Assembly: GCA_019075905.1 (NCBI GenBank)
Contig: JAGXAM010000003.1
Location: forward strand, 124,001-188,000
Length of the DNA: 64,000 nucleotides
Direction: 5' to 3'
DNA from: Hyphomicrobiales bacterium
Lineage (GTDB): Bacteria; Pseudomonadota; Alphaproteobacteria; Rhizobiales; Beijerinckiaceae
Shown here: one piece after another, positions 30,418-56,473 of the stretch
Numbering within the stretch: position 1 is the first letter of the stretch
How the letters are laid out: each line of letters opens with the position of its first letter
Made by a program: the position numbers and the translations under genes
Notes under the pieces: model-generated
Database searches by the model: none
What the model was told of the DNA's origin: nothing
The model's input: only the letters and a program-made list of their open reading frames with translations

Positions 30418-30915
30418 ATGAAGCGCATTACCCTTGCGACTATCGGCGCCCCGGTCGGGGTGCGCGGCCAGGTGCGGGTCAATTCCCACACCGCTAAACC
30501 CGGCGACTTTGCCAGCTTTGCCCCGCTCTATCTTGATGACAGCAGCCAGGTTATGCACGTCAAGAAGCTGCGGCAAGAGCGCGACAACGCTTATATTGTT
30601 GAATTTGAAGGCATAACCACTCGCGAACAGGCGGCCAGCCTGCGCCATGGCAACCTGACGATTGCCCGCGGGCAATTGCCGGCGCCCGAAAATGAAGACG
30701 AGTTTTATCTGGCGGACATGATCGGCCTGCGGGTGCTTGATGCCGAAGGTCGCGAGATTGGCGCCGTCGTCGGAGTCATGAATTACGGCGCCGGTGATAT
30801 TATCGAGGTCAAGCCGCATGATGGCGGCGAGACCGCGCTGTATCCCTTCAGCAAGGCCTGTGTGCCGGAGATCGACCTCGCGAGAGGCTGCCTGACCCTG
30901 ATCGTGCCCGCGTAA
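30418..30915 (+). CDS. rimM: Ribosome maturation factor RimM
   Basis: A 165-residue 16S rRNA-processing factor for 30S assembly. The N-terminal barrel starts ITLATIGAPVGVRGQVRV and the C-terminal PRC-barrel part includes DEFYLADMIGLRVLDAEG. The gene starts 3 nt after irr; a GTG at 30412 overlapping the irr stop is an alternative. rimM normally sits in rpsP-rimM-trmD-rplS, and none of those genes is nearby. Confidence 0.93.
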   Translation: MKRITLATIGAPVGVRGQVRVNSHTAKPGDFASFAPLYLDDSSQVMHVKKLRQERDNAYIVEFEGITTREQAASLRHGNLTIARGQLPAPENEDEFYLADMIGLRVLDAEGREIGAVVGVMNYGAGDIIEVKPHDGGETALYPFSKACVPEIDLARGCLTLIVPA

Positions 30916-31062
30916 CACAGGGGCCAGGGCGGAAATGCCGGTTCATGGCTGCCGCGTGACCCTGATCGACCGGCAAGGCGCGCCATCGCAATGGCTGAAT
31001 ATTGGCGGCATCTCGCTGGTGGTTTACGGTCGCATGACCAAGGCGGCATGACTGGAGCGGGC

Positions 31063-32007
<945 letters not shown>

Positions 32008-32010
32008 AGC

Positions 32011-33138
32011 CTAACCGGCCTTGATTTCGGCCGTCTCGCGCGTCCAGGCGCGGGCCTGCGCGCTGATGCTGACGCCGAGGCCTGGCCGCACTGGCACCAG
32101 CATGCGCCCGTCCCTCACCTCAAGCCTTTCATTGAACAGGGGCTCCAGCCATTCGAAATGTTCGACCCACGGCTCGCGCTGCATCGCCGCGGCAAGGTGG
32201 ATGTGCAGCTCCATCGAAAAATGCGGCGCGATCTGCAGGCCGGCAAATTCGGCCAGCGTCGCTGTCTTGAGGAACGGGGTGATGCCGCCGATGCGCGGAC
32301 CGTCGGGCATGAGGAAATCGCAGCCATTCTGGCGGATGAACTCCCAGTGTTCCTGCACGCTGGTCAGCATTTCGCCGGTGGCAATGGGCGTGTCGAGCGC
32401 AGCCGCCAGCGCCGCATGCCCGGCAGCATCATAGCAATCGAGCGGCTCCTCGATCCAGATCAGGTTGAAGCGCTCGAAGAGCCGGCCCATGCGCATCGCG
32501 CTCGGGCGATCCCATTGCTGGTTGGCATCGACCATCAGCGGAAAATCATCGCCGAGATGGGCGCGCACCTTGGCGACCCGCTCCAGATCGCGCCGCCAGT
32601 CGGGCTGGCCGACCTTCAGCTTGATGCCGCCGATGCCCCTGGCGCGCGAGGCATCGGCATTGGTGAGCAGCTCGTCCAGCGGCGTATGCAGGAATCCGCC
32701 CGACGTGTTGTAGCAACGCACGCTGTCGCGATGCGCGCCCAGCAGCCTGGCCAGCGGCAGGCCGGCGCGTTTCGCCTTGAGGTCCCAGAGCGCGACATCA
32801 AAGGCGCCAATCGCCTGCACGCCAAGCCCGCTGCGCCCGACCGAGGCCCCCGCCCAGGCGAGCTTGTCCCAGGCCTTGGCAATGTCGCTCACCGCCTCGC
32901 CGATCAAAGTCGGCGCGATCTCGCGGGCATGGGCGAATTGCCCCGGCCCGCCAGCGCGCTTGGCATAGCTGAACCCAAGCCCGCTTCGCCCCTCGCTGGT
33001 CTCGATCTCGCAAAACAGGATGGCGATTTCGGTCATCGGCTTCTGTCGGCCGGTCAGCACCTTGGCATCGCTGATCGGTGTCTTCAGCGGCAGGAAAACG
33101 GATGAGAGCCTTAACGCGGCAACGGTCTCGGCGGCCAT
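32011..33138 (-). CDS. L-talarate/galactarate dehydratase (enolase superfamily)
   Basis: A 375-residue enolase-superfamily dehydratase very similar in pattern to enterobacterial L-talarate/galactarate dehydratase. It has the KxK catalytic pair in GGIKLKVGQ, metal ligands in MVDANQQW, WIEEPLDCYD and ATGEML, and the catalytic His in APHFSMELH. NTSGGFLHTPLDELL is another match to that subgroup. The reaction gives 5-keto-4-deoxy-glucarate. It is the last gene of the minus-strand hexarate cluster. Confidence 0.88.
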   Translation of the reverse strand: MAAETVAALRLSSVFLPLKTPISDAKVLTGRQKPMTEIAILFCEIETSEGRSGLGFSYAKRAGGPGQFAHAREIAPTLIGEAVSDIAKAWDKLAWAGASVGRSGLGVQAIGAFDVALWDLKAKRAGLPLARLLGAHRDSVRCYNTSGGFLHTPLDELLTNADASRARGIGGIKLKVGQPDWRRDLERVAKVRAHLGDDFPLMVDANQQWDRPSAMRMGRLFERFNLIWIEEPLDCYDAAGHAALAAALDTPIATGEMLTSVQEHWEFIRQNGCDFLMPDGPRIGGITPFLKTATLAEFAGLQIAPHFSMELHIHLAAAMQREPWVEHFEWLEPLFNERLEVRDGRMLVPVRPGLGVSISAQARAWTRETAEIKAG

Positions 33139-33146
33139 GGCGATCC

Positions 33147-34688
33147 TCAGGTCACGGGTGCGGGATTGAACAAGGTCAGGTCATTATGGATGCCCCAGCG
33201 GTCGGCCCACGGCTGCACCCGCCCGCTCGCCACGTCGAGAATGAGACGGAACAGCTCCCATCCGGCCTCCTCGATGGTCTGCTCGCCGGTCGCGATGCGC
33301 CCGGCGTCGAAATCGATCAAATCCTTCCAGCGTCGCGCCAGTTCGCTGCGGGTGCTGACCTTGATCACCGGCGCGGCCGCAAGGCCATAGGGTGTGCCGC
33401 GGCCGGTGGTGAACACCTGCATGGTGATGCCCGAGGCCAGTTGCAGCGTGCCGCAGATGAAATCGCTCGCAGGTGTCGCCGCAAACAGCAGCCCCTTCTG
33501 GCGCGCCTTTTCGCCCGGCGCCAGCACGCCGGAAATGGCGCCGGAGCCGGATTTGACGATGGAACCCAGCGATTTTTCAACAATATTGGCCAGCCCGCCC
33601 TTCTTGTTGCCGGGCGTGGTATTGGCGCTGCGGTCGGCGCCGCCGCGCTTCAGGTAGGCGTCATACCATTCCATCTCGCGCACCAGCTCGTGGCCGACCT
33701 CCGGCGTCGCGGCGCGGCGGGTCAGCAGGTTGATGGCGTCGCGCACTTCCGTGACTTCGGAAAACATCACCGTCGCGCCGGCCCGCACCAGCAGATCGGT
33801 GGCAAAACCGACGGCGGGATTGGCGGTGACGCCTGAAAAGGCATCGCTGCCGCCACATTGCAGGCCGATCACCAGATCAGCCGCCGGACAGGTCTCGCGG
33901 CGGCGCTGGTCGAGCACGGCAAGGCGTGCCTCGGCCATGGACATGATGCGTTCGACGATCGCGCCGAAACCTTCGAGGTCATCGTCCTGCATGCGCATGA
34001 CCGCCTTGTCGACGCCCTCCGGCACCAGCCGGTCAGCCGACAGCTTCTCGCAGCCAAGCCCGACCACCATCACCTGGCCGCCGAAATTCGGATTGGTCGC
34101 CAGATTCTGCAAAGTGCGGATCGGCACCACGGCATCGGGCGCGGTGATGGCAACGCCGCAGCCATAGGCATGGGTGATCGCCACCACATCATCGACATGG
34201 GGATATTTCGGCAGCAGCTCGGCCTTGATGCGCTTGACCGCAAATTCCATCGTGCCCTTGACGCATTGCACCGAGGTCGAGATGGCGAGGATATTTTTGG
34301 TGCCAACCGAGCCGTCCCGATTGCGATAGCCCTCAAAGCTGTAGCCCTCCAGCGCGGGCGCCGGCGCCGGCGTCGCGGTGGCGATCTCGACGGCCGCGAG
34401 ATCGGGCGCGCCCGGCATGTCGATCAGCGATTCCTCGACCCAGTCGCCCGGCAGGATGGCAGCCCGCGCATAGCCGATGATCTCGCCATAGCGGCGGATC
34501 GGCTCGCCTTCACCAATCGCGACCAGCGCCGTCTTGTGGCCTTGCGGCACGTAGGCGCGCAGGCTCAGCCCGTTGGCGAAGGTCGAGCCTGCCGGCAGCC
34601 CGAAATCATTGACGACAATCGCGACATTATCGCGCTCGTGCAGCTTGATATAGCGCGGCGGATCCTTGGCGGGGTCGAGTTGCGACAT
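33147..34688 (-). CDS. garD: Galactarate dehydratase (UxaA/GarD family)
   Basis: A 513-residue iron-dependent dehydratase. The N-terminal SAF-like domain starts [19 protein letters not shown] and contains [10 protein letters not shown] and RYGEIIGYA. The main domain has [34 protein letters not shown] and [11 protein letters not shown]. It converts galactarate to 5-keto-4-deoxy-glucarate, the same product as the adjacent enolase-type enzyme, so the locus has two non-homologous routes to one intermediate. It is 12 nt downstream of the garL remnant. Confidence 0.92.
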
Positions 34689-34700
34689 GTTCGAAATCCT

Positions 34701-35297
34701 TCAGCTAAGCCGGGCGACCAGTTGTTCAGCACCACGTGCCATCAGGCCCTGATCGGAGCCATTAGCGACGAAACTGCCGCCGAGCTCTATGCAGCGCCGG
34801 GCCAGCGTTTCGTCAGGGGTCAGAATGCCGGCGGGCTTGCCGCAGGCATGGATGCGCGCAATCGTCGCTTCGATGGTGCGCAGCACATCGGGATGTTTGG
34901 CATCACCGACGTGACCCAGCGCCGCCGCCAGATCACCCGGGCCGATGAACACACCCTCGACGCCGGCAATCGCCTCCAGATTGTCGAGCCCCCTGCGCGT
35001 CTCGACCTGCAGCAGCACGCAAAGCTCGTCCTCGCAGTGCGTCGCATTATCCTTGGCGCGGCCGAAGCGGTTGGCGCGCGGCGCGCTCGAATAGCCGCGC
35101 GCGGCATCGCTCGCCTGCAGCTGCGCATAGACCATCGGCAATTCATTGGCCGCGTGTTCGGTATCGAGCACGATCCAGTCACAGCCGGCCCCCGCGATGA
35201 TCTTGACCGTGACATGGCTGAAGAGGATCGACCACAGGCCGAGTTGCAGCTTGCGGGCGGCAATGGCGTGCTTGAAGCTGTTGACAGGCAGGTGCAT
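34701..35297 (-). pseudogene. garL: 2-dehydro-3-deoxyglucarate aldolase with in-frame internal deletion
   Basis: The frame encodes 198 residues of an HpcH/HpaI-type aldolase, about 58 fewer than the usual ~256. The N-terminal part (LQLGLWSILFSH, WIVLDTEHAANELPMV with the catalytic His48) and the C-terminal part (LLQVETRRGLDNLEAI with the metal Glu, FIGPGDLAAALG with the metal Asp) are intact. They join abruptly near residues 62-66 (LQASDAARGYSS, about 35100-35111). The missing block should contain two barrel strands and the substrate-binding Arg. A further three residues seem lost before VEGVFIGP. The frame is open, but an active aldolase is unlikely. Confidence 0.8.
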
Positions 35298-35310
35298 GGG
35301 GCTTTCTGGC

Positions 35311-36585
35311 TCAGGGCGCGTCGATCAGGATGGCGCGGAAATCATTGACATTGGTGAGGGTCGGGCCGGTGATGACGCTGTCGCCGAGCGCGCCGAAGAA
35401 ACCATGGCCGTCATTATTGTCGAGCGCGGCTGCCGGATCGATGCCCATGGCCCGGGCGCGCGCCAACGTCGTTGGCGTCAGCAGCGCACCGGCGACATCG
35501 ACCTGGCCGTCGACGCCATCGGTATCCCCGGCAAGCGCATGGACGCGCGCCGCGCCGCTGAGCGCCAGGCCTAGCGACAGCAGGAATTCGACATTGCGCC
35601 CGCCGCAGCCCTGGCCGCGCACGCTCACCGTCGTCTCGCCGCCCGACAGCAGGATGCAGGGCGCGGCGAAAGGCTGGCCATGGCGCAGCACCTGATGCGT
35701 CAGCCCGGCCATCACCTTGCCGACCTCGCGCGCCTCGCCTTCAATCGCGTCGCCGAGAATATGCGTCGCAAAACCCGCGGCCCGCGCCAGTTCTGCCGCC
35801 GCCTCCAGCGCCATTTGCGGCGCGGCAATGATGTGGGTCTCGGCGCGCGCCAGCCGCGGATCGCCGGGCTTGACGCTCTCGCCGCGCCCGCCCTCCAGCG
35901 CCTCACGTGCTTCACGCGGCGTCTCGATCCGGTAGCGGGCCAGCACCGCCAGCGCATCGGCGCAGGTTGTGGCATCGGCCACCGTTGGCCCCGAGGCTAT
36001 ATCGGCCGGATCATCGCCGGGCGTATCCGAGATCAGCAGCGTGACGACCCTGGCGGGGTAACATGCCGCCGCCAGCCGTCCGCCCTTGATCGCCGAGAGG
36101 TGGCGGCGCACGATATTCATCTCGGAAATGCTCGCGCCCGAGCGCAGCAGGGCGCGGTTGATCTCCTGTTTCATCGCCAGCGTCAGGCCGGGCAAGGGCG
36201 CCGGCAACAGCGCCGAGCCACCACCCGATATCAGCGCAATCACCAGATCATCCGCGCTCAGGCCTTCGGCCATCGCCAGCATGCGGCGCGCGCCCTCGGC
36301 CCCCGCCGCGTCCGGCACCGGATGCGCCGCCTCGACAATCTCGATGTGCCTGCACGCCCTCGCATAGCCGGTGCGGGTGACGACGAGCCCGCCCAGCGGG
36401 CCCTCCCAGGCCGTCTCCAGCGCCTCCGCCATCGCCGCCGAGGCCTTGCCGGCGCCAAGCACGATGACGCGCCCGCGCGGCGCCGCAGGCAGAAAGCGGG
36501 CGAGCACCCGCGCCGGCTGCGCCGAGGCTATCGCGGCCTCGAACATCGCCCGCAGCAGCGTCGACGGGTCGCCAGAGCCGGACAT
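35311..36585 (-). CDS. gckA: Glycerate 2-kinase (GckA/TtuD type, MOFRL)
   Basis: A 424-residue kinase that phosphorylates D-glycerate to 2-phosphoglycerate, the last step of hexarate and glyoxylate-derived carbon entry to glycolysis. The N-terminal domain has RVIVLGAGKASAAMAEALE and ISGGGSALLPAP. The C-terminal MOFRL domain has LLSGGETTVSVRGQGCGGRN and AGDTDGVDG. Its ATG overlaps the garR stop (TGATG), so translation is coupled. Confidence 0.93.
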   Translation of the reverse strand: MSGSGDPSTLLRAMFEAAIASAQPARVLARFLPAAPRGRVIVLGAGKASAAMAEALETAWEGPLGGLVVTRTGYARACRHIEIVEAAHPVPDAAGAEGARRMLAMAEGLSADDLVIALISGGGSALLPAPLPGLTLAMKQEINRALLRSGASISEMNIVRRHLSAIKGGRLAAACYPARVVTLLISDTPGDDPADIASGPTVADATTCADALAVLARYRIETPREAREALEGGRGESVKPGDPRLARAETHIIAAPQMALEAAAELARAAGFATHILGDAIEGEAREVGKVMAGLTHQVLRHGQPFAAPCILLSGGETTVSVRGQGCGGRNVEFLLSLGLALSGAARVHALAGDTDGVDGQVDVAGALLTPTTLARARAMGIDPAAALDNNDGHGFFGALGDSVITGPTLTNVNDFRAILIDAP

Positions 36586-37478
36586 CACGCTCCCGCCCCG
36601 ATTTCATGATTGGCGAGCGTTTCTAGCGCCCGCACCATCGCCGCGCGATCCAACGCCTTGCCGCCATGCGCGGCGCAGGCGTTGAACAATTCCTGCGTCG
36701 TCGCCGTATGGGGCAGTGAACCCCCGAGCGTGCGCGCGGTCGTGAGCGCCAGGTTCAAGTCCTTCTGGTGCAGTTCGATGCGAAAGCCCGGTTCAAACCT
36801 GCGTTGGACCATGCGCTCGCCATGCACTTCGAGAATGCGCGAGGCGGCAAAGCCGCCCATCAGCGCCTGCCGCTCCTTGGCCGGGTCTGCCCCGGCCCTC
36901 GAGGCGAGCAGCAGCGCCTCGCTGACGGCTTCGATGGTCTGCGCGACGACGATCTGGTTGGCGACTTTCGTCGTCTGGCCGTCGCCATTGCCGCCCACCA
37001 GCGTGATGTCCTTGCCCATCAGCTCGAACAGCGGCCTGACCTTCAGAAATGCCGCCTCAGGCCCGCCGGCCATGATGCTGAGCGAGCCAGCCCTGGCGCC
37101 AACCTCGCCGCCCGAAACCGGCGCATCCAGATAATCGCAGCCGAGCGCATTGATGCGGGCGGCGAAATCCTTGGTCGCCACCGGTGAAATCGAACTCATG
37201 TCGACAACGATCTTGCCTCCGGTCAGGCCTTCGGCGAGGCCGCCATCGCCAAACAGCACCGCCTCGACGTCGGGCGTATCAGGCACAATGATGATCGTGA
37301 CCTCGGCTGCCGCAGCCACCTCCCGCGCCGTGTCGCAAACGACAGCGCCGCCCGCCAGCAGTTCCTGCGGATATCGGCTGCAGCTATGCAGATAGAGCTT
37401 GTGGCCGGCAGCCTGCAAATGGCCCGCCATGGGCGCACCCATGACGCCAAGGCCGATGAAACCGATTGTCCTGCTCAC
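36585..37478 (-). CDS. garR: Tartronate semialdehyde reductase
   Basis: A 297-residue beta-hydroxyacid dehydrogenase that reduces tartronate semialdehyde to D-glycerate. The NAD(P)-binding motif is IGFIGLGVMGAPMAGHL, the substrate motif DAPVSGGEVGARAGSL, and the catalytic lysine region GQTTKVANQIVV. The GTG at 37478 is chosen: AAAGGA lies upstream and the product begins in the usual place. The upstream open frame is non-homologous and overlaps the gudD remnant. Confidence 0.93.
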   Translation of the reverse strand: MSRTIGFIGLGVMGAPMAGHLQAAGHKLYLHSCSRYPQELLAGGAVVCDTAREVAAAAEVTIIIVPDTPDVEAVLFGDGGLAEGLTGGKIVVDMSSISPVATKDFAARINALGCDYLDAPVSGGEVGARAGSLSIMAGGPEAAFLKVRPLFELMGKDITLVGGNGDGQTTKVANQIVVAQTIEAVSEALLLASRAGADPAKERQALMGGFAASRILEVHGERMVQRRFEPGFRIELHQKDLNLALTTARTLGGSLPHTATTQELFNACAAHGGKALDRAAMVRALETLANHEIGAGA

Positions 37479-37479
37479 G

Positions 37480-38219
37480 TCATATCCTTTCCTCGCGCAC
37501 CAGCGCTGGCCGCTTGTTGTCAACGACCCAACCGGGCACGAGATATTGCATGGCCATAGCATCATTACGTGCGCCGAGCCCGTAGGATTTGTAAAGCGCA
37601 TGCGCGGCCACGAGCCGGGTCCGGTCGATTTCGATGCCAAGACCGGGACGCTCCGGCACGGCGATCCTTCCGCCACAGATCACCAGCGGCTCCCGGGTCA
37701 GCGCCTGCCCGTCCTGCCTGATCCAGTGCGTGTCGATCGCCGTCACGCGGCCCGGCGCTGCCGCACCGACATGGGTGAACATCGCCAGCGAAATATCGAA
37801 ATGGTTGTTGGAATGCGCCCCCTGGTGAGGCCGTGATCGCGGCAAGTCTGCGCGACGCGGGTCGAGCCCTGCATCGTCCAGAAATGCGGATCAGCCAGCG
37901 GAATATCGACCGCATGCAGCTGAATGGCATGCGACAATTGCCGCCAGTCGGTGGCGATCATGTTGGTGGCGGTGGCAATGCCGACGACCAGCGCGCGCGC
38001 CTCTTCCAGCGTGCGGCGGATGCTCTCGCCGCCCGGCACCTCGCCAAGACCGACATGGCCGGCATTGTCGCTGAGAATGACGATATTGCGAGTGAAAGAC
38101 GGCGCATGCGCACCGCTGAGATTGAGCAGCATGGAATCGCGTCCGGCGACCGGGATGACCTCCATCGCCGTGACCACGGGCGCGCCCCTGTCAGGGCCGG
38201 AAATGAGCTCATGGGCCAT
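37480..38219 (-). pseudogene. gudD: Glucarate dehydratase remnant: large deletion plus frameshift
   Basis: The 5' part encodes an intact GudD N terminus ([50 protein letters not shown]). It then jumps at about residue 80 (37975-37982) to the late segment [17 protein letters not shown], losing about 200 of the ~446 codons, including the KxK and metal-ligand region. A second lesion at about 37818-37824 shifts the frame in a G-run: HGLTRGR should continue as [13 protein letters not shown], which resumes in the next frame and runs to the normal end ([18 protein letters not shown]). GGAGG precedes the ATG. The gene cannot make active enzyme. Confidence 0.92.
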
Positions 38220-38283
38220 GGCGTCCTCCTCGCGCGGACCGGCGCCGCATTTTTGCTGTTGCTTGAAGCCTGCGCCCGCACCA

Positions 38284-38335
38284 AGTCTAGCAGAGCCATC
38301 TTCCTGGCTCCAAGCCAAAGCGGGTATTGATCAAT
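38284..38335 (-). promoter_or_regulatory. Candidate promoter and operators upstream of gudD remnant
   Basis: On the minus strand TTGGAG (38308-38313) and an extended TGC-TAGACT (-10 at 38284-38289) are 18 nt apart. The spacer contains the inverted repeat GAGCCA/TGGCTC (38293-38310). A palindrome ATTGATCAAT lies just upstream (38326-38335), with a related ATCAAT at 38347-38352. This would drive the gudD-garR-gckA-garL-garD-talrD genes. Confidence 0.33.
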
Positions 38336-38391
38336 GCGCGTCAGGTATCAATCGGCGCCGGCACGAGGGCGCAACACATGATAGCGCCGGT

Positions 38392-39180
38392 TTACCAGCT
38401 TGATCCTGAGGCATAGGGCACCGTCAGCCGTCGTACCAGCATGACGATCTGACTGAAGATCAGGCCGATGGCGCCGATCACGACCATGCCGGCAATTACC
38501 TGCGCCGTATCCAGTCCGCTTTGCGCATTGGTGATCAGATAACCGAGGCCAGCCATCGATCCAATATATTCGGCGGCGATCACGCTCACCCATGCATAGG
38601 CCAGAGCCACCTGCAGGCCGGTGAGGATGCGCGGCAGCGCGGCCGGAAATACCACGCCCAGCATCCGGCGCCAGCCGGTGACACCCAGCATGGCCGCAGC
38701 CTTGAGGATATAGGGATCGACGTCGCGGAGGGCGGCGGCGGTGTTGATGACGACCACGAAATAGCAGGCATAGGCGACCACGAAAATCTTGCCGGTGAGC
38801 GAGACGCCGAACCAGACGACCACCAGCGGCACCAGTGAAAACGGCAGGATGAACCGGAAGGTTTCGATGACCGGTTCGAGAAAGGCATCGACCCAGCGCC
38901 ACTGCGCCATGGCGCCGCCGCATACGAGCCCGGCCATGGTTCCGATCCCAAATCCCCAGAAGAGCTCGACGAGGCTGGTCGCAATATCCTGCCTGAGCGA
39001 ACCATCGGCGGCCATCATCATCAGTGCATGCCACACGGCGGGTGGCGTCGGCAGGATAACCGCGCGCACCTGGAACAACGCCGTGATGGTCCACCAAACC
39101 GCGAGCAGGATGATGAACCCGAGGATGGCACTGGCGCTGCCGCCGACAGAGGGCAGCAGCGACCTCAATCGATATTTCAT
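38392..39180 (-). CDS. ABC permease, SsuC/TauC-like (importer 1)
   Basis: A 262-residue inner-membrane permease with about six helices and the coupling-loop pattern AAAMLGVTGWRRMLGVVFPAALPRILTG. The family carries sulfonates, taurine, nitrate or thiamine precursors. It starts 1 nt after the stop of the other permease. The frame is open upstream, but the ATG at 39180 fits the family start. Confidence 0.88.
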   Translation of the reverse strand: MKYRLRSLLPSVGGSASAILGFIILLAVWWTITALFQVRAVILPTPPAVWHALMMMAADGSLRQDIATSLVELFWGFGIGTMAGLVCGGAMAQWRWVDAFLEPVIETFRFILPFSLVPLVVVWFGVSLTGKIFVVAYACYFVVVINTAAALRDVDPYILKAAAMLGVTGWRRMLGVVFPAALPRILTGLQVALAYAWVSVIAAEYIGSMAGLGYLITNAQSGLDTAQVIAGMVVIGAIGLIFSQIVMLVRRLTVPYASGSSW

Positions 39181-39181
39181 G

Positions 39182-39955
39182 TCATGTCCGCCGGTTGCTG
39201 ACGATCCAGGGAAACAGCCGCCGCTGGCCCTGCATGAAGGCGAAATTCGCCAGATAGCCGAGCGCCGCCAGCACCACCATGCCGACCATGATCTGCGCAA
39301 CATCAAAGGCCTGCCCGCCATAGCTTTCGAGAGCGCCGATCCCCACTTCCCCCGCCACCAGTTCGGCAATGACGACACCGCCCCACGAGGCGCCGAGACT
39401 GTAGCGCAGGCCAAGGAGAATGTCGGGCATGGCCGACATCAGCACGACTTCAAGCCGCTGCCACCAGTGCAGGTGCAGCGACTGGCTGGCCTTGACGACT
39501 TCGCGCTCTATCGCGCTGACGCCGTGCACGGTGTTGACGACTACCGTAAAGAGGCTGATCAGCACGATGATGCTGGCCTTGCTCCAATAGCCGATTCCGA
39601 ACCACAGGATCGCCAAAGGCACCCAGGCCAGCGGCGAGATGAAGCGCAGGAAGTCGATCACCGGCCGCAGCAGCAGCCGCGCCAGAGCAAAGCGGCCGAT
39701 GATCAAGCCAAGGGCAATGCCGAGCAGCGAGCCGATCAACCAGCCGCCGGCCGCCTCTTCGAGGCTTGCCAACGTGTCGCGGCCAAGTTCGCTGTGCGCC
39801 AGCTCGAAGCCGCGCATCGCCGCCCGCCATGGCGAAGGAAACAGGTCGAGCTTTGGCGTCTGCAGCAGCCATGACAGCACCACCCAGCCGCCGAGCATGA
39901 AACCGACGGAAGCAAGGCGGACGCCAAAAAGGCTGGCCCTGGCGGGGCCTGTCAC
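39182..39955 (-). CDS. ABC permease, SsuC/TauC-like (importer 1)
   Basis: A 257-residue permease with several helices (VGFMLGGWVVLSWLL, WLIGSLLGIALGLIIGRFAL, SIIVLISLFTVVVNTVHGV) and the coupling region ASQSLHLHWWQRLEVVLMSAMPDILLG. It overlaps the binding-protein gene by 4 nt. With the neighbouring permease it probably forms a heterodimeric channel. Confidence 0.88.
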   Translation of the reverse strand: MTGPARASLFGVRLASVGFMLGGWVVLSWLLQTPKLDLFPSPWRAAMRGFELAHSELGRDTLASLEEAAGGWLIGSLLGIALGLIIGRFALARLLLRPVIDFLRFISPLAWVPLAILWFGIGYWSKASIIVLISLFTVVVNTVHGVSAIEREVVKASQSLHLHWWQRLEVVLMSAMPDILLGLRYSLGASWGGVVIAELVAGEVGIGALESYGGQAFDVAQIMVGMVVLAALGYLANFAFMQGQRRLFPWIVSNRRT

Positions 39956-40953
39956 TTGCCGACAGCCCTGGCGGCAAATTCGGGGTGCACCAGATCCTTG
40001 ATGAAGCCGGCAACATCCGCAGTCTTGATCACGCCGAATTTTTTCAGAATCGTCGCCTGGGCGATCATCGCCTTTTCATCCGGCACCACGCTCGCCGGTA
40101 GCTGCACCAGCTTGTGCGTGTAGCAATATTCGACGTTGGCAAGGCTCGTCCTGGTGCCTTCGGCGAGCGCCTTGTAGGCATCCTGAGGGTGGTCGCGCAA
40201 GAGGTTTTCGGCGCGTTGCACATAGCCCATCAGCGCCACGACCACGTCCGGATGCGCCTTGGCAAAGGCTGGCCGCACGATAATGCCGCCGCCGGGCCAT
40301 GCCTGGCCATAGACCTGCGACGCGGTTGTTATCAGGCGACCGGTCCCGTTGGTCAGCATTTCCGCGCTGTATGGTGCGTAAGTGATCACCGCATCAAACG
40401 CGCCGCGCGCAAGCGCCGCCGGCTCGGTCGGCCCGGTGGTGTTGTAGCCCTGAATATCCTTCAGCGTCAGGCTGGCCTTCTGCATCGCCATCTGCAAGAC
40501 CGCCGTTGGCGCCGTATTGGGCGCGACGCCGCCAACCTTGCGGCCTTTGAGATCGGCGACGGATTTGACCGGGCTGTCCTTGGCGGCAATGAGCGCCACA
40601 TAATTCATCGCGCCATTGCCGACATACCACATGACGCCGGGACTATGGGAAGCTACCTGCTCGATGCCGGAAGTATCGGCTTCACCAAAATCGAGCGAGC
40701 CCGCCGCCATGGCTGCAGCCTCGGGCGGAATGCCTGCCAGAAACTCGTGCCACTGGACCTTGTAGCCATCGTGCTCCAGCCAATGCTCGGCGCGGATCAG
40801 CGCCAGCGGCCGCAGCGCCGGAAACAGGCCGATGCTCAGGTCGCGCGTGCCGGGTGCCCCGGGGGTTGGCGTGGATGGTGACGCCGCCAGCGCCGGAAGC
40901 GCCACGCCCAGCGAAAGCGTGGCAAGGGCTGCGAAAGCATAATGCTGTTTCAT
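39952..40953 (-). CDS. NMT1/SsuA-like periplasmic binding protein (importer 1)
   Basis: A 333-residue exported receptor with a signal peptide (HYAFAALATLSLGVALPALAA) and the NMT1/SsuA fold (FPALRPLALIRAEHWLEHDG, AGSLDFGEADTSGIEQVA, DLKGRKVGGVAPNTAPTAV). Members bind sulfonates, nitrate, aromatic acids or pyrimidine precursors. Its position in the hexarate cluster suggests an organic-acid ligand, but that is inference. Confidence 0.85.
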   Translation of the reverse strand: MKQHYAFAALATLSLGVALPALAASPSTPTPGAPGTRDLSIGLFPALRPLALIRAEHWLEHDGYKVQWHEFLAGIPPEAAAMAAGSLDFGEADTSGIEQVASHSPGVMWYVGNGAMNYVALIAAKDSPVKSVADLKGRKVGGVAPNTAPTAVLQMAMQKASLTLKDIQGYNTTGPTEPAALARGAFDAVITYAPYSAEMLTNGTGRLITTASQVYGQAWPGGGIIVRPAFAKAHPDVVVALMGYVQRAENLLRDHPQDAYKALAEGTRTSLANVEYCYTHKLVQLPASVVPDEKAMIAQATILKKFGVIKTADVAGFIKDLVHPEFAARAVGK

Positions 40954-40996
40954 GTGAGACGTCTCCTCTTTTTGTTATGGGTGACAGCCCGGCGCG

Positions 40997-42190
40997 TCAG
41001 ATGATTTCTGCCTCGCGCAGGGCATTGATTTCGGCGATGCTCATGCCGAGCAGGCCGCCCAGCACCGCCTCGTTTCCGGCGCCAAGTTCCTGGCCGAGCC
41101 AGCGCACCTGGCCTGGTGTCTCGCTCATGCGCGGCAGCGGCGCCGCCATCAGCACTGGCCCGAAATCCTTGTCCTTGGTGCTCATCACCGTGCCGCGCTC
41201 ACGGAAATGCGGATCCGCCGCGATATCGGCAATGCTCATGATCGGCGAGGCTGGAATGTCAGCGGCGACGAGCTTCGCCATGAGGTCGGCCAGCGTCAGG
41301 CCGCGCGCCCATTGGGCGATGATGGCATAGAGCTTGTCCTGGTTCTTGACGCGCGTGGCAAAGCCCGCGAAGTCGGGTTCCGCGCAAATATCCGGCCGCC
41401 CCATCAATGCGCCGAGCCGACGCAGCAACGATTCCGTGCCGGCGTGAATGGCGATGCGCTTGTCATCGGCAGTATCATAATCGGCGGCGGGTACGACCAT
41501 GGGATTGGTATTGCCGGTGCGCTCCCTGACCGCGCCCCTGGCTGAATAGGCGAGCATCGCATCTTCCGACGCCCGGAACCCCGGCTCGTAAAGGGCAAGA
41601 TCAATGACCTGTCCGGCGCCGCCGCGCAGATCGCGGTTATAAAGCGCCGTCACCACGCCAAAGGCACCGACATAGGCAGCCATATAATCAATCACCGCAT
41701 AGCCGGAGCGCACTGGCGGCCGGCCCGGCTCGCCGCTGACATAGGTCAGCCCGGAAAAGGCGCTGGCGATGCGGTCGAAAGCACCGCGATCGGCATAAGG
41801 CCCGGTCAGGCCATAGCCCGTGACATAAAGCGCGATCAGCCGCGGATAGCGCGCACGGATCGTGTCGGGATCAAAGCCCCAACGACGCAGCGTCGGCGGC
41901 CGGAAGTTGGTCACCAGCACATCGAACTGCGGCAGCAGGGCATTGACGATCTCGCGCGCCTCGGGCTTGCGCAGGTCAAGCGTGATCGAAGTCTTGTTGC
42001 GGCCATCCTGGATCCAGTGCAGCGATCGGCCGCCCGGTTCGGGCGCGCCACGGCGCATGAAGTCGCCATGGACGCGATCCTCTATTTTGACGACCTCGGC
42101 GCCAAAATCACCGAGCGTGGTCGCGGTCACCGGCGCCGCGATGATCGAAGACATGTCGAGGACGCGTACACCCGCGAGCGGTAGGCTCAT
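40997..42190 (-). CDS. Class III CoA-transferase (CaiB/BaiF family)
   Basis: A 397-residue CoA-transferase. The N terminus reads PLAGVRVLDMSSIIAAPVTATTLGDFGAEVVKIE, the CoA-binding part has DLRKPEAREIVNALL and FDVLVTNFRPPTLRRWGFD, and the catalytic Asp is in GQVIDLALYE. The family moves CoA between carboxylic acids (formyl-CoA, carnitine, benzylsuccinate and others). It sits inside the ABC operon, overlapping the ATPase gene by 4 nt, so its substrate may be the imported acid. Confidence 0.88.
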   Translation of the reverse strand: MSLPLAGVRVLDMSSIIAAPVTATTLGDFGAEVVKIEDRVHGDFMRRGAPEPGGRSLHWIQDGRNKTSITLDLRKPEAREIVNALLPQFDVLVTNFRPPTLRRWGFDPDTIRARYPRLIALYVTGYGLTGPYADRGAFDRIASAFSGLTYVSGEPGRPPVRSGYAVIDYMAAYVGAFGVVTALYNRDLRGGAGQVIDLALYEPGFRASEDAMLAYSARGAVRERTGNTNPMVVPAADYDTADDKRIAIHAGTESLLRRLGALMGRPDICAEPDFAGFATRVKNQDKLYAIIAQWARGLTLADLMAKLVAADIPASPIMSIADIAADPHFRERGTVMSTKDKDFGPVLMAAPLPRMSETPGQVRWLGQELGAGNEAVLGGLLGMSIAEINALREAEII

Positions 42191-42993
42191 GACAAAACTC
42201 CCTTTGATGAATCCGGGGACGGCGCATGCGCCAGTAGGTCGAACACTTCGGCCGTGAGCTGCGCGAAAGCGTCGCTCGAACGGTCACGCTGGGCGGCATC
42301 AGGCTGAATGTGGCGGCGGACGCTTCCGGGACGCCCGCTCATGACGAAAACGCTGTCGCCGAGATAGACCGCCTCGCCGACATCATGGGTGACGAACAGC
42401 ACCGTCATGCGCGCATCGGCGGTGATGCGGCGCAGTTCCTGCTGCAGCACGGCGCGTGTCTGCGCGTCGACTGCGGCGAAAGGCTCGTCCATCAGCAACA
42501 CGTCAGGCTGCAGCGCCAGCGCCCGGGCAATGCCGACCCGCTGTGCCATGCCGCCCGATAATTCATGCGGATAGGCCCCGGAAAATCCCCCCAGTCCGAC
42601 GAGGTCGATATAATGACTGGCCCGCGCCAGCGCTTCGGCGCGCCCCAGCTTGCGCGCCCGCAGACCGAAGGTGATATTGCCGAGCACGGTCTTCCAGGCA
42701 AACAGCGCCGGGCGCTGGAAGACCACGGCAAGACGGGCAGGCGTGCCCGAGGGGCCAGGATCAATTTCGATACGGCCCGATTGCAGCGGCACGAGGCCCG
42801 CCACCAGATCGAGCAGCGTGCTCTTGCCGCAGCCCGAAGGCCCGACAAGACAGCCAAACCCGCCGCCGGGGATGGTGAGCGAGCAAGCGGCCAGCGCCTG
42901 CACCATGCCGTGGCGCGTCGGATACTTCAGCTCAATGTCGCGAACCCTGATCTCGGGTCCCGGCTCCTGCGCCCTGGTTGACGACATGTCCAT
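42187..42993 (-). CDS. ABC ATPase, SsuB/TauB-like (importer 1)
   Basis: A 268-residue ATPase with Walker A GPSGCGKST, signature LSGGMAQRVGIARAL, Walker B VLLMDEPFAAVD and the switch His in VTHD. It belongs to the nitrate/sulfonate/taurine subgroup. The ATG at 42993 has GGAGG upstream. It is the first gene of importer 1 and lies 34 nt after the GntR gene. Confidence 0.9.
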   Translation of the reverse strand: MDMSSTRAQEPGPEIRVRDIELKYPTRHGMVQALAACSLTIPGGGFGCLVGPSGCGKSTLLDLVAGLVPLQSGRIEIDPGPSGTPARLAVVFQRPALFAWKTVLGNITFGLRARKLGRAEALARASHYIDLVGLGGFSGAYPHELSGGMAQRVGIARALALQPDVLLMDEPFAAVDAQTRAVLQQELRRITADARMTVLFVTHDVGEAVYLGDSVFVMSGRPGSVRRHIQPDAAQRDRSSDAFAQLTAEVFDLLAHAPSPDSSKGVLS

Positions 42994-43027
42994 AAGCCTG
43001 ACTTCCTCCCGGATCTGCACGAAGCTG

Positions 43028-43723
43028 TTATTGCGGCTCGTCCCCGGGCCTGGCTGCTATGGCAGCGAGTGCCGCAGCGTGGTTTGATTCATGCAGGCGC
43101 CATGCAAGGTCCGAGGCGCGTTCAGCCTCGCCGGCCATGATGGCTGCAAGCATATCCTTGGCAAAGCCGACCAGAAGCTTGCGATGGGCTATCGTGCTGT
43201 GCGCCATCATCGCGTAATAGCGATAGGACTGGCTGGTCAGCTTGCGGAAGGCCTTCTGCAGGCGGCCATTGCCGCAATGGGCCAGCAGAAACGCGCTGGC
43301 AGCCTGCGTGGATTCGACAAATTGCGCCGGCGTCACCGACGGATCGTCCGCAAGAACCTCGATCCGCCGCACAAATGGCAGATAGGCTTGAAGCTCGCCG
43401 GGCAAGGCGCGACGCACAAACAGCCGCACCACCGCCGCATAGAGCGCCGAGCGCAATTCAAACATTTCGCTGATTTCGGCCGGCGAGAGGTGGACAACCA
43501 CCGTGCCGCGTCGCGGCCGCTGCACCACCAGCTCATCGCGCGTCAGCATGCGCAGGGCTTCGCGCACCGGCGCGCGCGACACGCCGTAACGTGCAGCTAT
43601 TTCTGCCTCGCCCATGCGCTGGCCGGGCTTGTACTCGCCAAGCTCGATCGCCCTTGCAAGTTCGCGAGCGAGGAAATGCGCCAGCGGCTCGGGAACGCGT
43701 GATTTGCGTTCAGTATCGTCCAT
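43028..43723 (-). CDS. GntR-family regulator with FCD domain
   Basis: A 231-residue regulator. The N-terminal winged helix has LARELARAIELGEYKPGQRM and AARYGVSRAPVREALRML. The C-terminal FCD-type ligand domain has ALYAAVVRLFVRRAL and a late helix with HESNHAAALAAI. FCD regulators often sense organic acids such as gluconate, lactate or hexuronates. It sits between the two importers, and a palindrome just upstream suggests autoregulation. GGAG is 9 nt before the ATG at 43723. Confidence 0.9.
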   Translation of the reverse strand: MDDTERKSRVPEPLAHFLARELARAIELGEYKPGQRMGEAEIAARYGVSRAPVREALRMLTRDELVVQRPRRGTVVVHLSPAEISEMFELRSALYAAVVRLFVRRALPGELQAYLPFVRRIEVLADDPSVTPAQFVESTQAASAFLLAHCGNGRLQKAFRKLTSQSYRYYAMMAHSTIAHRKLLVGFAKDMLAAIMAGEAERASDLAWRLHESNHAAALAAIAARPGDEPQ

Positions 43724-43752
43724 CGATCGTGGCTCCGGGATTGAGATATCAA

Positions 43753-43762
43753 TTGTTGACAA
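43753..43762. promoter_or_regulatory. TTGT-NN-ACAA palindrome upstream of gntR
   Basis: The sequence TTGTTGACAA lies 30 nt upstream of the GntR start. Its form, TTGT and ACAA arms with a 2-nt centre, resembles FCD-type GntR operators, and the same form recurs at 47544-47553. Confidence 0.45.
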
Positions 43763-43820
43763 CAGCTTGGGTCCCTCAAGTTGGTTCGTGGCCCGGTTTC
43801 GGCCGGTTGAAATGCCGGAC

Positions 43821-44651
43821 TCATCCGGGCACATTGGTGCTTCCCTTGCTCCATCGCAGCAAATGACGCTCGGCCAGATCCATGAGCGCGGTCAGAGTCA
43901 TGACCACGAAGGCGATGACCAGCATCAGCGCCATGACGCTGGCGACATCGAAGCGCCCGCTGAAAGCTTCGACAAGGACGCCGAGACCGCTTTGCGCCGC
44001 GATCATTTCGCCGATGACGGCCCCGGCGCTGCAATAAATCAGCGTCAGCCTGAGGCCAGCGAAAATGCCCGGCAGCGCCCAGGGCAGGCGTATGTCGCGA
44101 AACAGGCGCAGCTCCGAAGCGCCAAACAGCCGCGACATCAGCAGCAGGTCACGGTCGACGTTTTTCAGGCCGCCCAGCGTGCTGAGCAGCATGATGAAAT
44201 AGCCTATCGAGGTGGCGAGCACGACCTTTGAGGCGATGCCAATCCCGAACCACAGGATGAACAGCGGCCCGAGCGCAATGCGCGGCATGCTGTTGAAGGC
44301 GGTCAGGAACGGCGAAAGGATCCGGTTCAGCCAGTCGCTGCGGTCGAGAATGAGGGCAGATGCGATGCCGAGCGTCACCGACAACAGGAACGACAGCACA
44401 ATTTCGATCAGTGTGGTAATCAGGTTGGCATAAAGATCGCCCGTTCCGGCAAGCGCAAGCAAGGCCCTGGCGACGCCCTCCGGCGAGGAGACGAAGGCGG
44501 GGTCGGCATAGCCAAAGGCGACAGCCAGCTGCCAAAGCGCCAGAAAGGCGACCAGAAACAGCGCCCGTGCCAGAAGAATGGCCAGCGAGTGGCCGGAAGC
44601 AGTGCGGCTTGCCGCATCAAGGCCGGTTTCGGAGGTGATGGCATCGCTCAT
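43821..44651 (-). CDS. ABC permease, SsuC/TauC-like (importer 2)
   Basis: A 276-residue permease with about six helices (ALFLVAFLALWQLAVAF, ITTLIEIVLSFLLSVTLGIAS) and the coupling loop MSRLFGASELRLFRDIRLPWALPGIF. Its start overlaps the ATPase stop by 4 nt. Only one permease gene belongs to this importer, so it probably works as a homodimer. Confidence 0.88.
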   Translation of the reverse strand: MSDAITSETGLDAASRTASGHSLAILLARALFLVAFLALWQLAVAFGYADPAFVSSPEGVARALLALAGTGDLYANLITTLIEIVLSFLLSVTLGIASALILDRSDWLNRILSPFLTAFNSMPRIALGPLFILWFGIGIASKVVLATSIGYFIMLLSTLGGLKNVDRDLLLMSRLFGASELRLFRDIRLPWALPGIFAGLRLTLIYCSAGAVIGEMIAAQSGLGVLVEAFSGRFDVASVMALMLVIAFVVMTLTALMDLAERHLLRWSKGSTNVPG

Positions 44652-45460
44652 TTCATGCTCTCGCGCAACGAGGTCCAGGTGCGGCGATAAAGGTCGTGGT
44701 AGCGCGGGTCGGCCTGCAGCGCCTCCGCCGAGCGCGGCCTTGCAAGATCGATCTCGATTTCGTCCGTGATGCCGGTGCCAAGGCGCGACAACACCACCAC
44801 GCGGTCCGCCAGGGTAATCGCCTCGCCAATGTCATGGGTGACGAAAACCACGGTAGCGCCACTGCTTTCCCACAGGTCAAGCAGCTGGTTGTGCAAGATC
44901 AGCTTGGTTTGCGAATCGAGGGCGCTAAAAGGCTCGTCCATCAGATAGACGCTGCGTGCCACTGCGAAAGCCCGCGCCAGAGAGGTTCGCTGACGCATGC
45001 CCTGCGAGAGCCGTGAGGGGTAAAAATCCCGGTAGTCCTGCAGCCCGACCCGGTCGAGATAAGCGAGCGCACGCTGCCGGCGTTCCTCACGGGCCAAGCC
45101 CGAGACTTCCAGCCCATATTCGACATTGCCAAGCACGCTGCGCCAGGGCAGCAGCGCGTCGCGTGCCAGAATGTAGCAAATATCCCGCCGCCCTGCCCTC
45201 GGCGGCGTCTTGCACACGTTCACGCTGCCAGCGGCAATGGGCACCAGCCCGGCCATGACATTGAGCAGCGTGGTCTTTCCGCAACCGCTGGCGCCGATCA
45301 GCGCCACGAATTCACAAGCGCGGATCGTCAGGTTGACGCCGGAAAGCGCCCTGAGGCGCGGACCGAAATTGACGGCGACATCCCGCACGGCAATTTCCAC
45401 CGGCGCGGAACCTTTCGCCTTGTCCGCCACAAGAGGGGCCGAAACCATCAGCATGCTCAT
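44648..45460 (-). CDS. ABC ATPase, SsuB/TauB-like (importer 2)
   Basis: A 270-residue ATPase with Walker A GASGCGKTT, Walker B VYLMDEPFSALD and VTHDIGEA. The signature region reads LSQGMRQRTSLARAF, so the second glycine of LSGG is replaced by Gln. It overlaps the binding-protein gene by 4 nt (start at 45460) and the permease gene by 4 nt. Confidence 0.9.
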   Translation of the reverse strand: MSMLMVSAPLVADKAKGSAPVEIAVRDVAVNFGPRLRALSGVNLTIRACEFVALIGASGCGKTTLLNVMAGLVPIAAGSVNVCKTPPRAGRRDICYILARDALLPWRSVLGNVEYGLEVSGLAREERRQRALAYLDRVGLQDYRDFYPSRLSQGMRQRTSLARAFAVARSVYLMDEPFSALDSQTKLILHNQLLDLWESSGATVVFVTHDIGEAITLADRVVVLSRLGTGITDEIEIDLARPRSAEALQADPRYHDLYRRTWTSLRESMK

Positions 45461-46512
45461 GGGCTGCAGGAATAGGTTTCGGGCGCAACGGCATCGATCA
45501 CGCCGGCACGGGTCTCGGGCCTCGTGACCTGCCCCTGCTCGATCACCAGTCTCGACCAGGTGTCGATCGTGCGCGCATCGATTGCCGGGCCGAAGGTCGG
45601 CACCAGCCGCTTGACCATGGCCTTGTATTCCGTGGCGGAAAGCTCGGGCACCTTGGCGTATTTGCGCATGATCGCGACCAGCGCGTCGAGATGGGACGGA
45701 TTGCTGTACCAGCAATAGGCCTGTTCCATGGATTTCACGAAGCCGGCGACCACCTTCGGCCTGTCCTTGATCGTCGAAGTTGACGCCCACCAGCCATTAT
45801 AGCCAAGCCCCTGAAAGAATTTGGGTCCCTGATTGGCGGCAAGATTGAGCACGACCTTGCCCTCGCCCTTGTCCTCGACAATGGTCGGCAGCGGCTCGAT
45901 GCTGAGATAAGTGTCGATGGTGCCATGTTCCAGCGCCGGGCGGCCGGTGGCTGGCAGGCCGACGGCCACAAATGTGGCGTCATTTGCCTTGTATCCGGCC
46001 TCCGTCAGCAGCTTCTGCTCAAGATACTGAACCGAGACGCCCAGTGCCACCACACCCCATTTCTTGCCGACGATGTCTTTCAAAACCTCCGGATAGCCTT
46101 GACTGAGATGCGGCAGCGCCAGACCCTTGCGAGCGATCAAGGCAAAGGGAACGCGCACGGTCGATCCGGCGACGCCACGGATCGGCAGGCCCTTTTCAAC
46201 GGCAACGATGAGATTGTCCCAGGAATTATTGACAAAGGTCACACTCCCGCTGGCGACCGCGGCGGTCATGGCAGGGCCGGTGTTGACGGGCACGAGATTG
46301 ACGTTCAAACCGTTTTTTTCAAAAAACTTTTTGTCCTTGGCAACGAAAGCGGGCAGCGAAATCAGCGCCCCCGGATAATAGGCGACGCTTGCATCAATGC
46401 CCTGCGCTGCCCGGGCCGATTGCGGCGCCAGAACCGCAAAAATGGCTGAAACTGCGGCGGTTGCGGCGACGCCGGGAATGCGCGCCTTGTTTAAGCTTGT
46501 GTGCATCATCAT
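45457..46512 (-). CDS. NMT1/SsuA-like periplasmic binding protein (importer 2)
   Basis: A 351-residue exported receptor. A signal peptide (IPGVAATAAVSAIFAVLAPQSARAA) is followed by VAYYPGALISLPAFVAKDKKFF and SGSVTFVNNSWDNLIVAVEKG. The ligand is unknown. GGGAGGA precedes the ATG at 46512. It lies 96 nt downstream of the distal lactonase gene. Confidence 0.86.
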   Translation of the reverse strand: MMMHTSLNKARIPGVAATAAVSAIFAVLAPQSARAAQGIDASVAYYPGALISLPAFVAKDKKFFEKNGLNVNLVPVNTGPAMTAAVASGSVTFVNNSWDNLIVAVEKGLPIRGVAGSTVRVPFALIARKGLALPHLSQGYPEVLKDIVGKKWGVVALGVSVQYLEQKLLTEAGYKANDATFVAVGLPATGRPALEHGTIDTYLSIEPLPTIVEDKGEGKVVLNLAANQGPKFFQGLGYNGWWASTSTIKDRPKVVAGFVKSMEQAYCWYSNPSHLDALVAIMRKYAKVPELSATEYKAMVKRLVPTFGPAIDARTIDTWSRLVIEQGQVTRPETRAGVIDAVAPETYSCSP

Positions 46513-46608
46513 CTCAGGTCCTCCCGTTTGATGGCGCTTTTGCCGCGCCTTTGCCCGCAAATCTCGTGGCGGCAGCGTTAGCACCGCAGCCTGATGGCCT
46601 TCGGCCTC

Positions 46609-47490
46609 TCACATCTGGAATTTCGCATCGGCCAGCCCGCGCACGCCAAGCCCTTCAATCGCGAACAGATGTCCGGCTTGCGGCTGGGCGGCATCGGAAA
46701 ATCGCGAGGCCGAAGTGACATAGAGAATATCGAGATCAGCGCCCCCGAAGTTGCACATGGTCGGGTTTGCCACCGGCAGCGCAATGCTGTTCATCAGCTT
46801 GCCATCCGGATCGAATTGCGCGACCGCGCCGCCCCGGAAAAGCGCCGTCCAGTAACAGCCGTCGGCATCGACCGTCGCCCCGTCCGGCAGGCCGGGCGCA
46901 GGCGTTTGCGCAAACAGGCGTCGATCGGCGATCTCGCCTTGTTCGAGGTCGAAATCATATTTCCAGATCTCGGCCCGGAACGAATCTGCCAAATACATGC
47001 TCCGCTTGTCGGGGCTCCAGGCTATGCCGTTGCCGGCAATGATGCCATCTTCCATCAGGCGCGGATTTTGGTTGCGCGCGAAGCGCCATAGCGCGCCTGA
47101 CGGGGTGCGGTGATCGGTGTTGATCGAGACGCACCAGAAGCGTCCGGCGCCATCGCATTTGCCATCATTCAGCCTGTTGCTGGCTGGCCGGTCCGCCTCC
47201 ACCGGCGCCAGCAACCGCGCATCGCCCGTCGCCATATCCAGCCTATAGAAGCCGCCCCTGACCCCGCCGATCAGCGCCTCTGTGTCGCTAGAAGCAATGG
47301 AACCTATCGGGCGCCCGCCGAGCGCTGCGGCAAAATCCGTGCGCTGGATAGCGCCGGTGGCCGGATCATAGGCAAAGACGAGGCCGGCCCAGGCATCGAT
47401 CCAGAGAAGCCTGCCCCGCCCGGCATCCCAGTGCAGCGACTCGCCAAGATCATTCGCAAATGATGTCAGGCAGACAATTTGAGGACGCAT
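46609..47490 (-). CDS. SMP-30/gluconolactonase-type lactonase, distal copy
   Basis: A 293-residue beta-propeller hydrolase. Family metal residues are visible: Glu in LGESLHWDAGRGRLLW, Asn in NRLNDGKCDGAGRFW, Asn in GNGIAWSPDKRSMYLADS and Asp in LPDGATVDADGCYW. It is the first gene of the co-directional cluster that runs down to 32011. It and the lactonase at 31063 are different sequences that bracket the hexarate genes. GGGAGGAG precedes the ATG. Confidence 0.86.
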   Translation of the reverse strand: MRPQIVCLTSFANDLGESLHWDAGRGRLLWIDAWAGLVFAYDPATGAIQRTDFAAALGGRPIGSIASSDTEALIGGVRGGFYRLDMATGDARLLAPVEADRPASNRLNDGKCDGAGRFWCVSINTDHRTPSGALWRFARNQNPRLMEDGIIAGNGIAWSPDKRSMYLADSFRAEIWKYDFDLEQGEIADRRLFAQTPAPGLPDGATVDADGCYWTALFRGGAVAQFDPDGKLMNSIALPVANPTMCNFGGADLDILYVTSASRFSDAAQPQAGHLFAIEGLGVRGLADAKFQM

Positions 47491-47855
47491 GGCTCCTCCC
47501 CCGGCTCTTGTCATTTGTCGCGACACTAACATAAAAAAGTCGATTGTCGACAAAAATATTGGCGACCATCCTGTCAACACACGATCCAGCTTTGCAGGCT
47601 GGAAAGGGGTCGCCTCGCTGCAAAATGCCAAAGCAAGGTCGCATTTCCCGCGCCTCAAGTCGGCAAGGCTCAGACGCGAGCCATGCCTGGGGCCGCAGAC
47701 CACGCCTCATTCCTACAGCCAGGCACTTCAGCCAAACGGCTGATCATGACCACAGCGGAGAGGCATGTTGATGGAACGGGGCGCGTTCTGGCCCGGCCAC
47801 AACCTCATCATCCGTGCCTTCACGCGGCGATGATACGAGGTTCAGGCTGGAAACT
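47491..47855. other. Upstream region of the distal lactonase
   Basis: About 365 nt between the lactonase gene and the tRNA. It contains the palindrome at 47544-47553 and a minus-strand TTGACA at 47572-47577, with an AT-rich stretch at 47530-47560. I see no good -10 match and no gene. Confidence 0.4.
47544..47553. promoter_or_regulatory. TTGTCGACAA palindrome upstream of the distal lactonase
   Basis: A perfect 10-bp palindrome lies 54 nt upstream of the lactonase start. It matches the TTGT-NN-ACAA form found upstream of the GntR gene, making it a candidate operator for that regulator. Confidence 0.5.
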
Positions 47856-47931
<76 letters not shown>

Positions 47932-48141
47932 ACAAGCCAGCGTTTAACGCCGGGATGCGCGCTTATAGCTGCAAAGGTTCGTATGCACAAGCACTTGCCG
48001 GCAGCAATTTTTACGGCCCTGCCAGCGGTACCAGAACCGCGGGAATGCGGCCCGGAGCCCGAAAATTTTCCCCGCGTTAATCTGCCGCGCGCCGCCTTGA
48101 CCCCCTACCCTCGCGCCTTGGCCCGTGCCATAAGGGCCGTC

Positions 48142-56333: not shown

Positions 56334-56473
56334 GGCCACCGCCTGCTATGGGCGGAAGCCGCCAGTTGATAAACCGCCCGCGCTGTCAGCCTGGCATCTG
56401 GCAGCGGCAGGCACGACGGGCGCCGTAGCAGGACATGTCTCACAAATTCCCCCCAGCGCCCCGACGCTGCCCC

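Follow-up and report, generated by a model that had tools for sequence, protein, structure and literature searches.

A garL aldolase gene with two in-frame deletions is very probably a pseudogene, or becoming one, within a sugar-acid gene island

The garL gene of a Hyphomicrobiales bacterium has lost two internal segments while its reading frame stayed open. Judged from its sequence, it has very probably become a pseudogene or is turning into one, and its product is almost certainly non-functional. The gene lies in the window, the whole 64,000-nucleotide stretch of DNA analysed here, which spans positions 124001–188000 of contig C8 in a genome of 2.88 Mb and 33 contigs (Table 1). A preliminary description of this DNA had recognised a 198-residue open frame that has lost two barrel strands together with the substrate-binding Arg, yet still encodes His48 and the metal-binding Glu and Asp. 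The frame was confirmed, the losses were borne out by alignment and structural modelling, and the retained residues by a 19-row alignment, in which all three are invariant. The finding is real but ordinary.

Table 1. Features of garL, its neighbouring genes and the surrounding block, in window coordinates.
Feature	Position	Strand	Details
Block absent between the same flanks (rimM, tRNA-Ala) in congeners G001 and G003	30909..47838		16.9 kb
SMP-30/gluconolactonase family protein	30991..32007	plus	Pfam
L-talarate/galactarate dehydratase, complete	32011..33138	minus	667 bits vs cut-off 500
garD, galactarate dehydratase, complete	33147..34688	minus	883 bits vs cut-off 731
garL with internal deletions	34701..35297	minus	198 aa, ATG start, HpcH/HpaI family
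Second, 3-residue deletion, approximate place	34962..34967	minus	E. coli GarL 166–168; alignment
Large-deletion junction	35094..35117	minus	codons 61–68 QASDAARG; alignment and DNA
garK-like glycerate 2-kinase	35311..36588	minus	both Pfam domains complete
garR, tartronate semialdehyde reductase	36585..37472	minus	full-length TIGR01505, 382 bits vs cut-off 341
gudD pseudogene, C-terminal part, other frame	37480..37845	minus	residues 349–458; frame shift near 37820
gudD pseudogene, first frame	37743..38318	minus	matches G001 gudD residues 5–87 and 295–351; junction near 37980
ABC transporter, two permeases and substrate-binding protein	38392..40953	minus	
tRNA-Ala (GGC), block edge	47856..47931	minus	

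The losses were defined by alignment of 73 sequences, comprising the window, E. coli GarL and 71 loci, among them a distant paralogue (L002) and a frameshifted copy (L055). The open-frame collection held 85 frames from 83 sources, the window counted in; nine duplicate loci were removed before alignment and two (L067 and L048) were left out for length. The window product lacks 55 columns in which over 90% of the 72 other sequences have a residue. Altogether, about a fifth of the enzyme has gone. A large deletion corresponds to residues 69–120 of E. coli GarL (52 residues, 156 nt) and a small one to residues 166–168 (9 nt, near 34964). The roughly 165 nt described earlier as missing at one junction are thus correct as a total, but they are divided between two places. 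The larger deletion takes strands and helices 3 and 4, together with Arg75, Lys85 and Asp89. Nine of the 35 columns conserved to at least 95% are absent (R75, K85, D89, G91, P98, A106, Y115, P117 and G119), and two further near-invariant ones are substituted (Y138N and D171E, the latter adjoining the small gap, so that the call depends on gap placement). The residual sequence keeps 24 of 26 near-invariant columns.

We take Asp89 to be an active-site residue of GarL, and Glu99 and Asp122 to be metal ligands; the short product retains Glu99 and Asp122 together with His48. In HpaI, the catalytic His is His45, the counterpart of GarL His48, and Arg70 is described as important for specificity and C–C cleavage (PMC8560999). 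Going by the alignment offset, GarL Arg75 is the counterpart of HpaI Arg70, and its column is deleted here. Of what a working enzyme would carry, the catalytic His and the metal-binding Glu and Asp are present and the substrate-binding Arg is absent. Compared with intact homologues, garL has lost residues needed for function, the need for the Arg resting on the HpaI study (PMC8560999). In the sequence of events that we propose, short deletions would have removed two strands and two helices of a (beta/alpha)8 barrel, with Arg75 and Asp89, and a further deletion three residues ahead of strand 6. The resulting protein would be expected neither to close an active site nor to cleave 5-keto-4-deoxyglucarate.

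The garL frame has no stop in its 198 codons, and it stayed open because both deletions are multiples of three. The chance that two independent deletions both keep the frame is about 1 in 9. The DNA here is G+C-rich, and the antisense strand over garL is open for 496 codons; open frames are therefore cheap in this region and the retained garL frame is weak evidence of function. Counting against a pseudogene are the in-frame nature of both deletions, the conservation of the rest of the protein and the apparent completeness of the other pathway genes. The junction motif 'SDAA' resembles the helix-4 residues ADAV and RDAV of L127 and L032, and CAGGCG is present both at the window junction and on the right side of L032. 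This is only suggestive of an origin of the large deletion in two steps.

The short product passes the Pfam HpcH_HpaI profile (PF03328) at 85.5 bits against a cut-off of 25. It matches in two stretches, the best of which spans profile positions 90–219 of 221. Its scores against the NCBIfam profiles for GarL (TIGR03239; 175 bits, cut-off 407) and HpaI (195 bits, its highest NCBIfam score; cut-off 369) fall far below threshold. The intact relatives L032 and L033 also fall short of these cut-offs, but by less (317 and 289 bits for TIGR03239). The earlier expectation that an automatic annotator would call a normal aldolase thus holds for Pfam and fails for the NCBI GarL and HpaI profiles. Even so, a 198-codon frame that is open and clears a Pfam threshold may be taken for a functioning aldolase, in which case a pathway predictor would attribute galactarate breakdown to the organism. 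Among proteins of solved structure, the closest in sequence is E. coli GarL, the 2-dehydro-3-deoxy-galactarate (5-keto-4-deoxyglucarate) aldolase (E 2.9e-47, matched in two pieces). The E. coli protein (PDB 1dxe/1dxf) shares with the window product the three retained residues, their flanking motifs and the neighbours garD, garR and garK, and differs in possessing the 52 + 3 residues gone here, with Arg75, Lys85, Asp89 and strands 3 and 4. The HpaI class II pyruvate aldolase (PDB 4b5s, 7et8) is of the same family and fold, but has the Arg that is deleted here and belongs to another pathway context.

A second gene of the same row is damaged. On the minus strand, gudD, garR, garK, garL, garD and a talarate/galactarate dehydratase gene follow one another, with gudD three genes upstream of garL. 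Compared with the intact 458-residue gudD of the sister genome (G001), gudD here is frameshifted and lacks residues 88–294 (~207 residues, about 621 nt). As a member of the enolase superfamily, the enzyme presumably loses its general base and its metal ligands with this part, and as sequenced gudD is non-functional. The other pathway genes are full length, garD, garR and the dehydratase gene as judged by NCBIfam and garK by Pfam; the listed garR ORF starts further upstream than the profile match. Since gudD in the same island is plainly dead, the glucarate/galactarate route is probably being lost. An unused catabolic island is probably decaying through short deletions, with relaxed selection as the putative cause, and the case would be a small example of such gene-by-gene decay. 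In Salmonella Paratyphi A, the glucarate/galactarate pathway is likewise lost through gene damage, but the genes reported as degraded there are gudT, ygcY, gudD and garD, instead of gudD and garL as here (PMC11077982).

The aldolase step was also searched for elsewhere in the genome. No orthologue of KdgD was found in the organism's own genome, where the best match is DapA; this DapA-family protein, on contig C5, scores 336 bits against the DapA cut-off of 206 and 130 bits against the KdgD cut-off of 374. Searches of the same genome returned neither a second gudD nor a second close GarL. A 260-residue HpcH/HpaI paralogue on contig C29 was rejected as an intact second GarL, with 32% identity to the intact Methylobacterium GarL (L033) and a score of 128 bits where the GarL profile requires 407; G001 and G003 yield similar matches, which suggests that the gene is older and shared across the genus. 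The sister genome carries gudD, kdgD, garD and an aldehyde dehydrogenase gene together on another contig (L086 5741–11733), and has no garL match better than 6e-10. The sister's aldehyde dehydrogenase was sought in the window's genome, where the best match was a succinate-semialdehyde dehydrogenase with 28% identity. Since neither KdgD nor another close GarL turned up, the organism appears to have lost the aldolase step, barring substitution by a more distantly related aldolase.

Such a substitution is unlikely, though hardly negligible. In this case garL would be dead and the pathway would still run, with 5-keto-4-deoxyglucarate being cleaved by a DapA-like aldolase such as GudL or by the full-length HpcH/HpaI paralogue; the genome contains that paralogue and a DapA-family protein. 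The completeness of garD, garR and garK would fit, as would the precedent of GudL, a DapA-like 5-KDG aldolase that is reported to have restored E. coli garL knockouts (PMC11775122). Neither candidate gene is linked to the gar cluster, however, and the paralogue is both far below the GarL cut-off and apparently older. A replacement aldolase concerns the pathway, and the pseudogene reading of garL stays intact under it.

It is very improbable that garL is full length in the living organism and that the segment was lost through faulty assembly or consensus calling. The G+C-rich DNA and the damage to two genes of one row could both point that way. The junction, however, lies within a 232 kb contig, far from its ends, and sequencing slips usually affect 1–2 bases, far fewer than the 156, 9 and about 621 nt missing here. 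In addition, 30 further window proteins (28 of 56 frames chosen by codon usage and two others) showed no comparable internal loss in Pfam scans, which are a coarse test. For two of the 30, Pfam gave no match, and two matches were partial, that of an NAD kinase (55557–56339) and the NMT1 match at 39952–40953.

A short form conserved in related species was sought by family and order searches, and no relative searched had it among the matches listed. With an intact 254-residue query, 118 of 397 genomes in the order-wide search matched at E ≤ 1e-40, and 93 of 397 matched garL at E ≤ 1e-30 in the family search, the organism's own genome being counted in both. The window match begins at query residue 119. 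Among the order-wide matches listed it alone starts past residue 17, apart from that of G522, which carries a stop (from residue 48). Within the alignment, the frameshifted L055 alone among the 72 other sequences lacks more than five such widely filled columns; L047 and L050 each lack five, and the remaining sequences fewer than three. A second garL-like copy in G029 (L143 1581–2060), with a 179-residue open frame, was considered as the same short form and rejected: it keeps residues 2–75, 139–169 and 231–249 of the intact copy found elsewhere in that genome, and spreads over more than one frame. From its sequence it is best described as a broken remnant with larger losses. Other incomplete copies include L048, shortened by a contig end; L067 of G253, with one TGA; L055 and its longer duplicate L120 (G173), which are frame-shifted; a match at a contig start in G317, with a 140-residue frame; and copies with a single stop in G522 and G654. 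The broken copies in G029, G253 and G173 are either further losses or draft-genome errors.

By relative-rate counts, the window garL has the larger number of private changes in 22 of 23 comparisons, in keeping with decay. The counts exceeded 3.84 (uncorrected for multiple testing) in eight, including all five comparisons against L032, and were below it in 15, including four of the five against the Azospirillum copy L127. The terminal branch of garL (0.308) is outside the 12 longest, which, like the counts below 3.84, speaks against a pseudogene. Because the residual protein is well conserved and the relative-rate counts are mixed, the lesion is probably recent.

The predicted structure of the short protein (AlphaFold, 19 aligned sequences) has six strands of at least three residues, a mean pLDDT of 79.0 and a pTM of 0.73, with pLDDT below 50 at the junction (residues 66–68 and 70–85). 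The intact Arenibaculum relative L032, modelled from 18 sequences, has eight strands (pLDDT 92.2, pTM 0.89). In these predicted models, the short product lacks a complete eight-stranded barrel. Its model superposes on class II aldolases (1dxe, VIA Z 22.1, 197 residues, 2.1 Å), and the Foldseek TM is 0.70 with target length as reference. A deletion mutant should superpose well when full-length relatives enter the modelling, and the fit is silent on activity.

Inactivity is favoured of the two outcomes initially entertained, an inactive protein or a minimal variant, and nothing positive was found for an active minimal enzyme. A functional (beta/alpha)6 aldolase, with the six strands closing into a narrower barrel or with oligomer partners contributing what has been lost, is highly improbable. 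The retention of His48, Glu99 and Asp122, the removal of two beta-alpha units with the frame kept and the rest conserved, and the superposition of the model would suit it. Against it stand the loss of Arg75 and Asp89, the second deletion, the low model confidence at the junction, the dead gudD of the same row, and the lack of a conserved short form among the matches listed. Still further from expectation would be a natural class II pyruvate aldolase working on six strands without the substrate-binding Arg, perhaps with altered specificity. Should the short protein prove active, it would be relevant to the minimum number of beta-alpha units in an aldolase barrel.

The damaged genes, on the preferred reading a probable pseudogene garL beside a dead gudD, lie in a block that is absent between the same flanks in two congeners. 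The spacing from rimM to tRNA-Ala (GGC) is 16.9 kb here, ~0.2 kb in G001 and ~0.9 kb in G003. G002 is uninformative on the block because its rimM-like match (36% identity) and radical SAM gene are far apart on one contig. The block contains two ABC transporters, two SMP-30 family proteins, a CoA-transferase, a GntR-like regulator and sugar-acid genes. Given its absence in two congeners, gain of the block here would be somewhat more likely than loss in the congeners. The window contains no further copy of the 3'-terminal 12 to 24 bases of tRNA-Ala, no exact repeats of at least 10 bases were found between the two block edges, and no integrase was recognised among the scanned block genes. On the flanks, the rimM product and the radical SAM protein share 85% and 95% identity with their G001 counterparts, and garD just 77%; garD is therefore probably not a straightforward orthologue of the G001 gene. 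The absence of the block in G001 and G003, the gudD damage and the second garL deletion go beyond the content of the preliminary description. At the block edge, the ORF of the radical SAM (HemN-like) gene (47683–48140) runs over the tRNA-Ala gene; its true start is probably downstream, as the strong congener match begins at residue 126–153.
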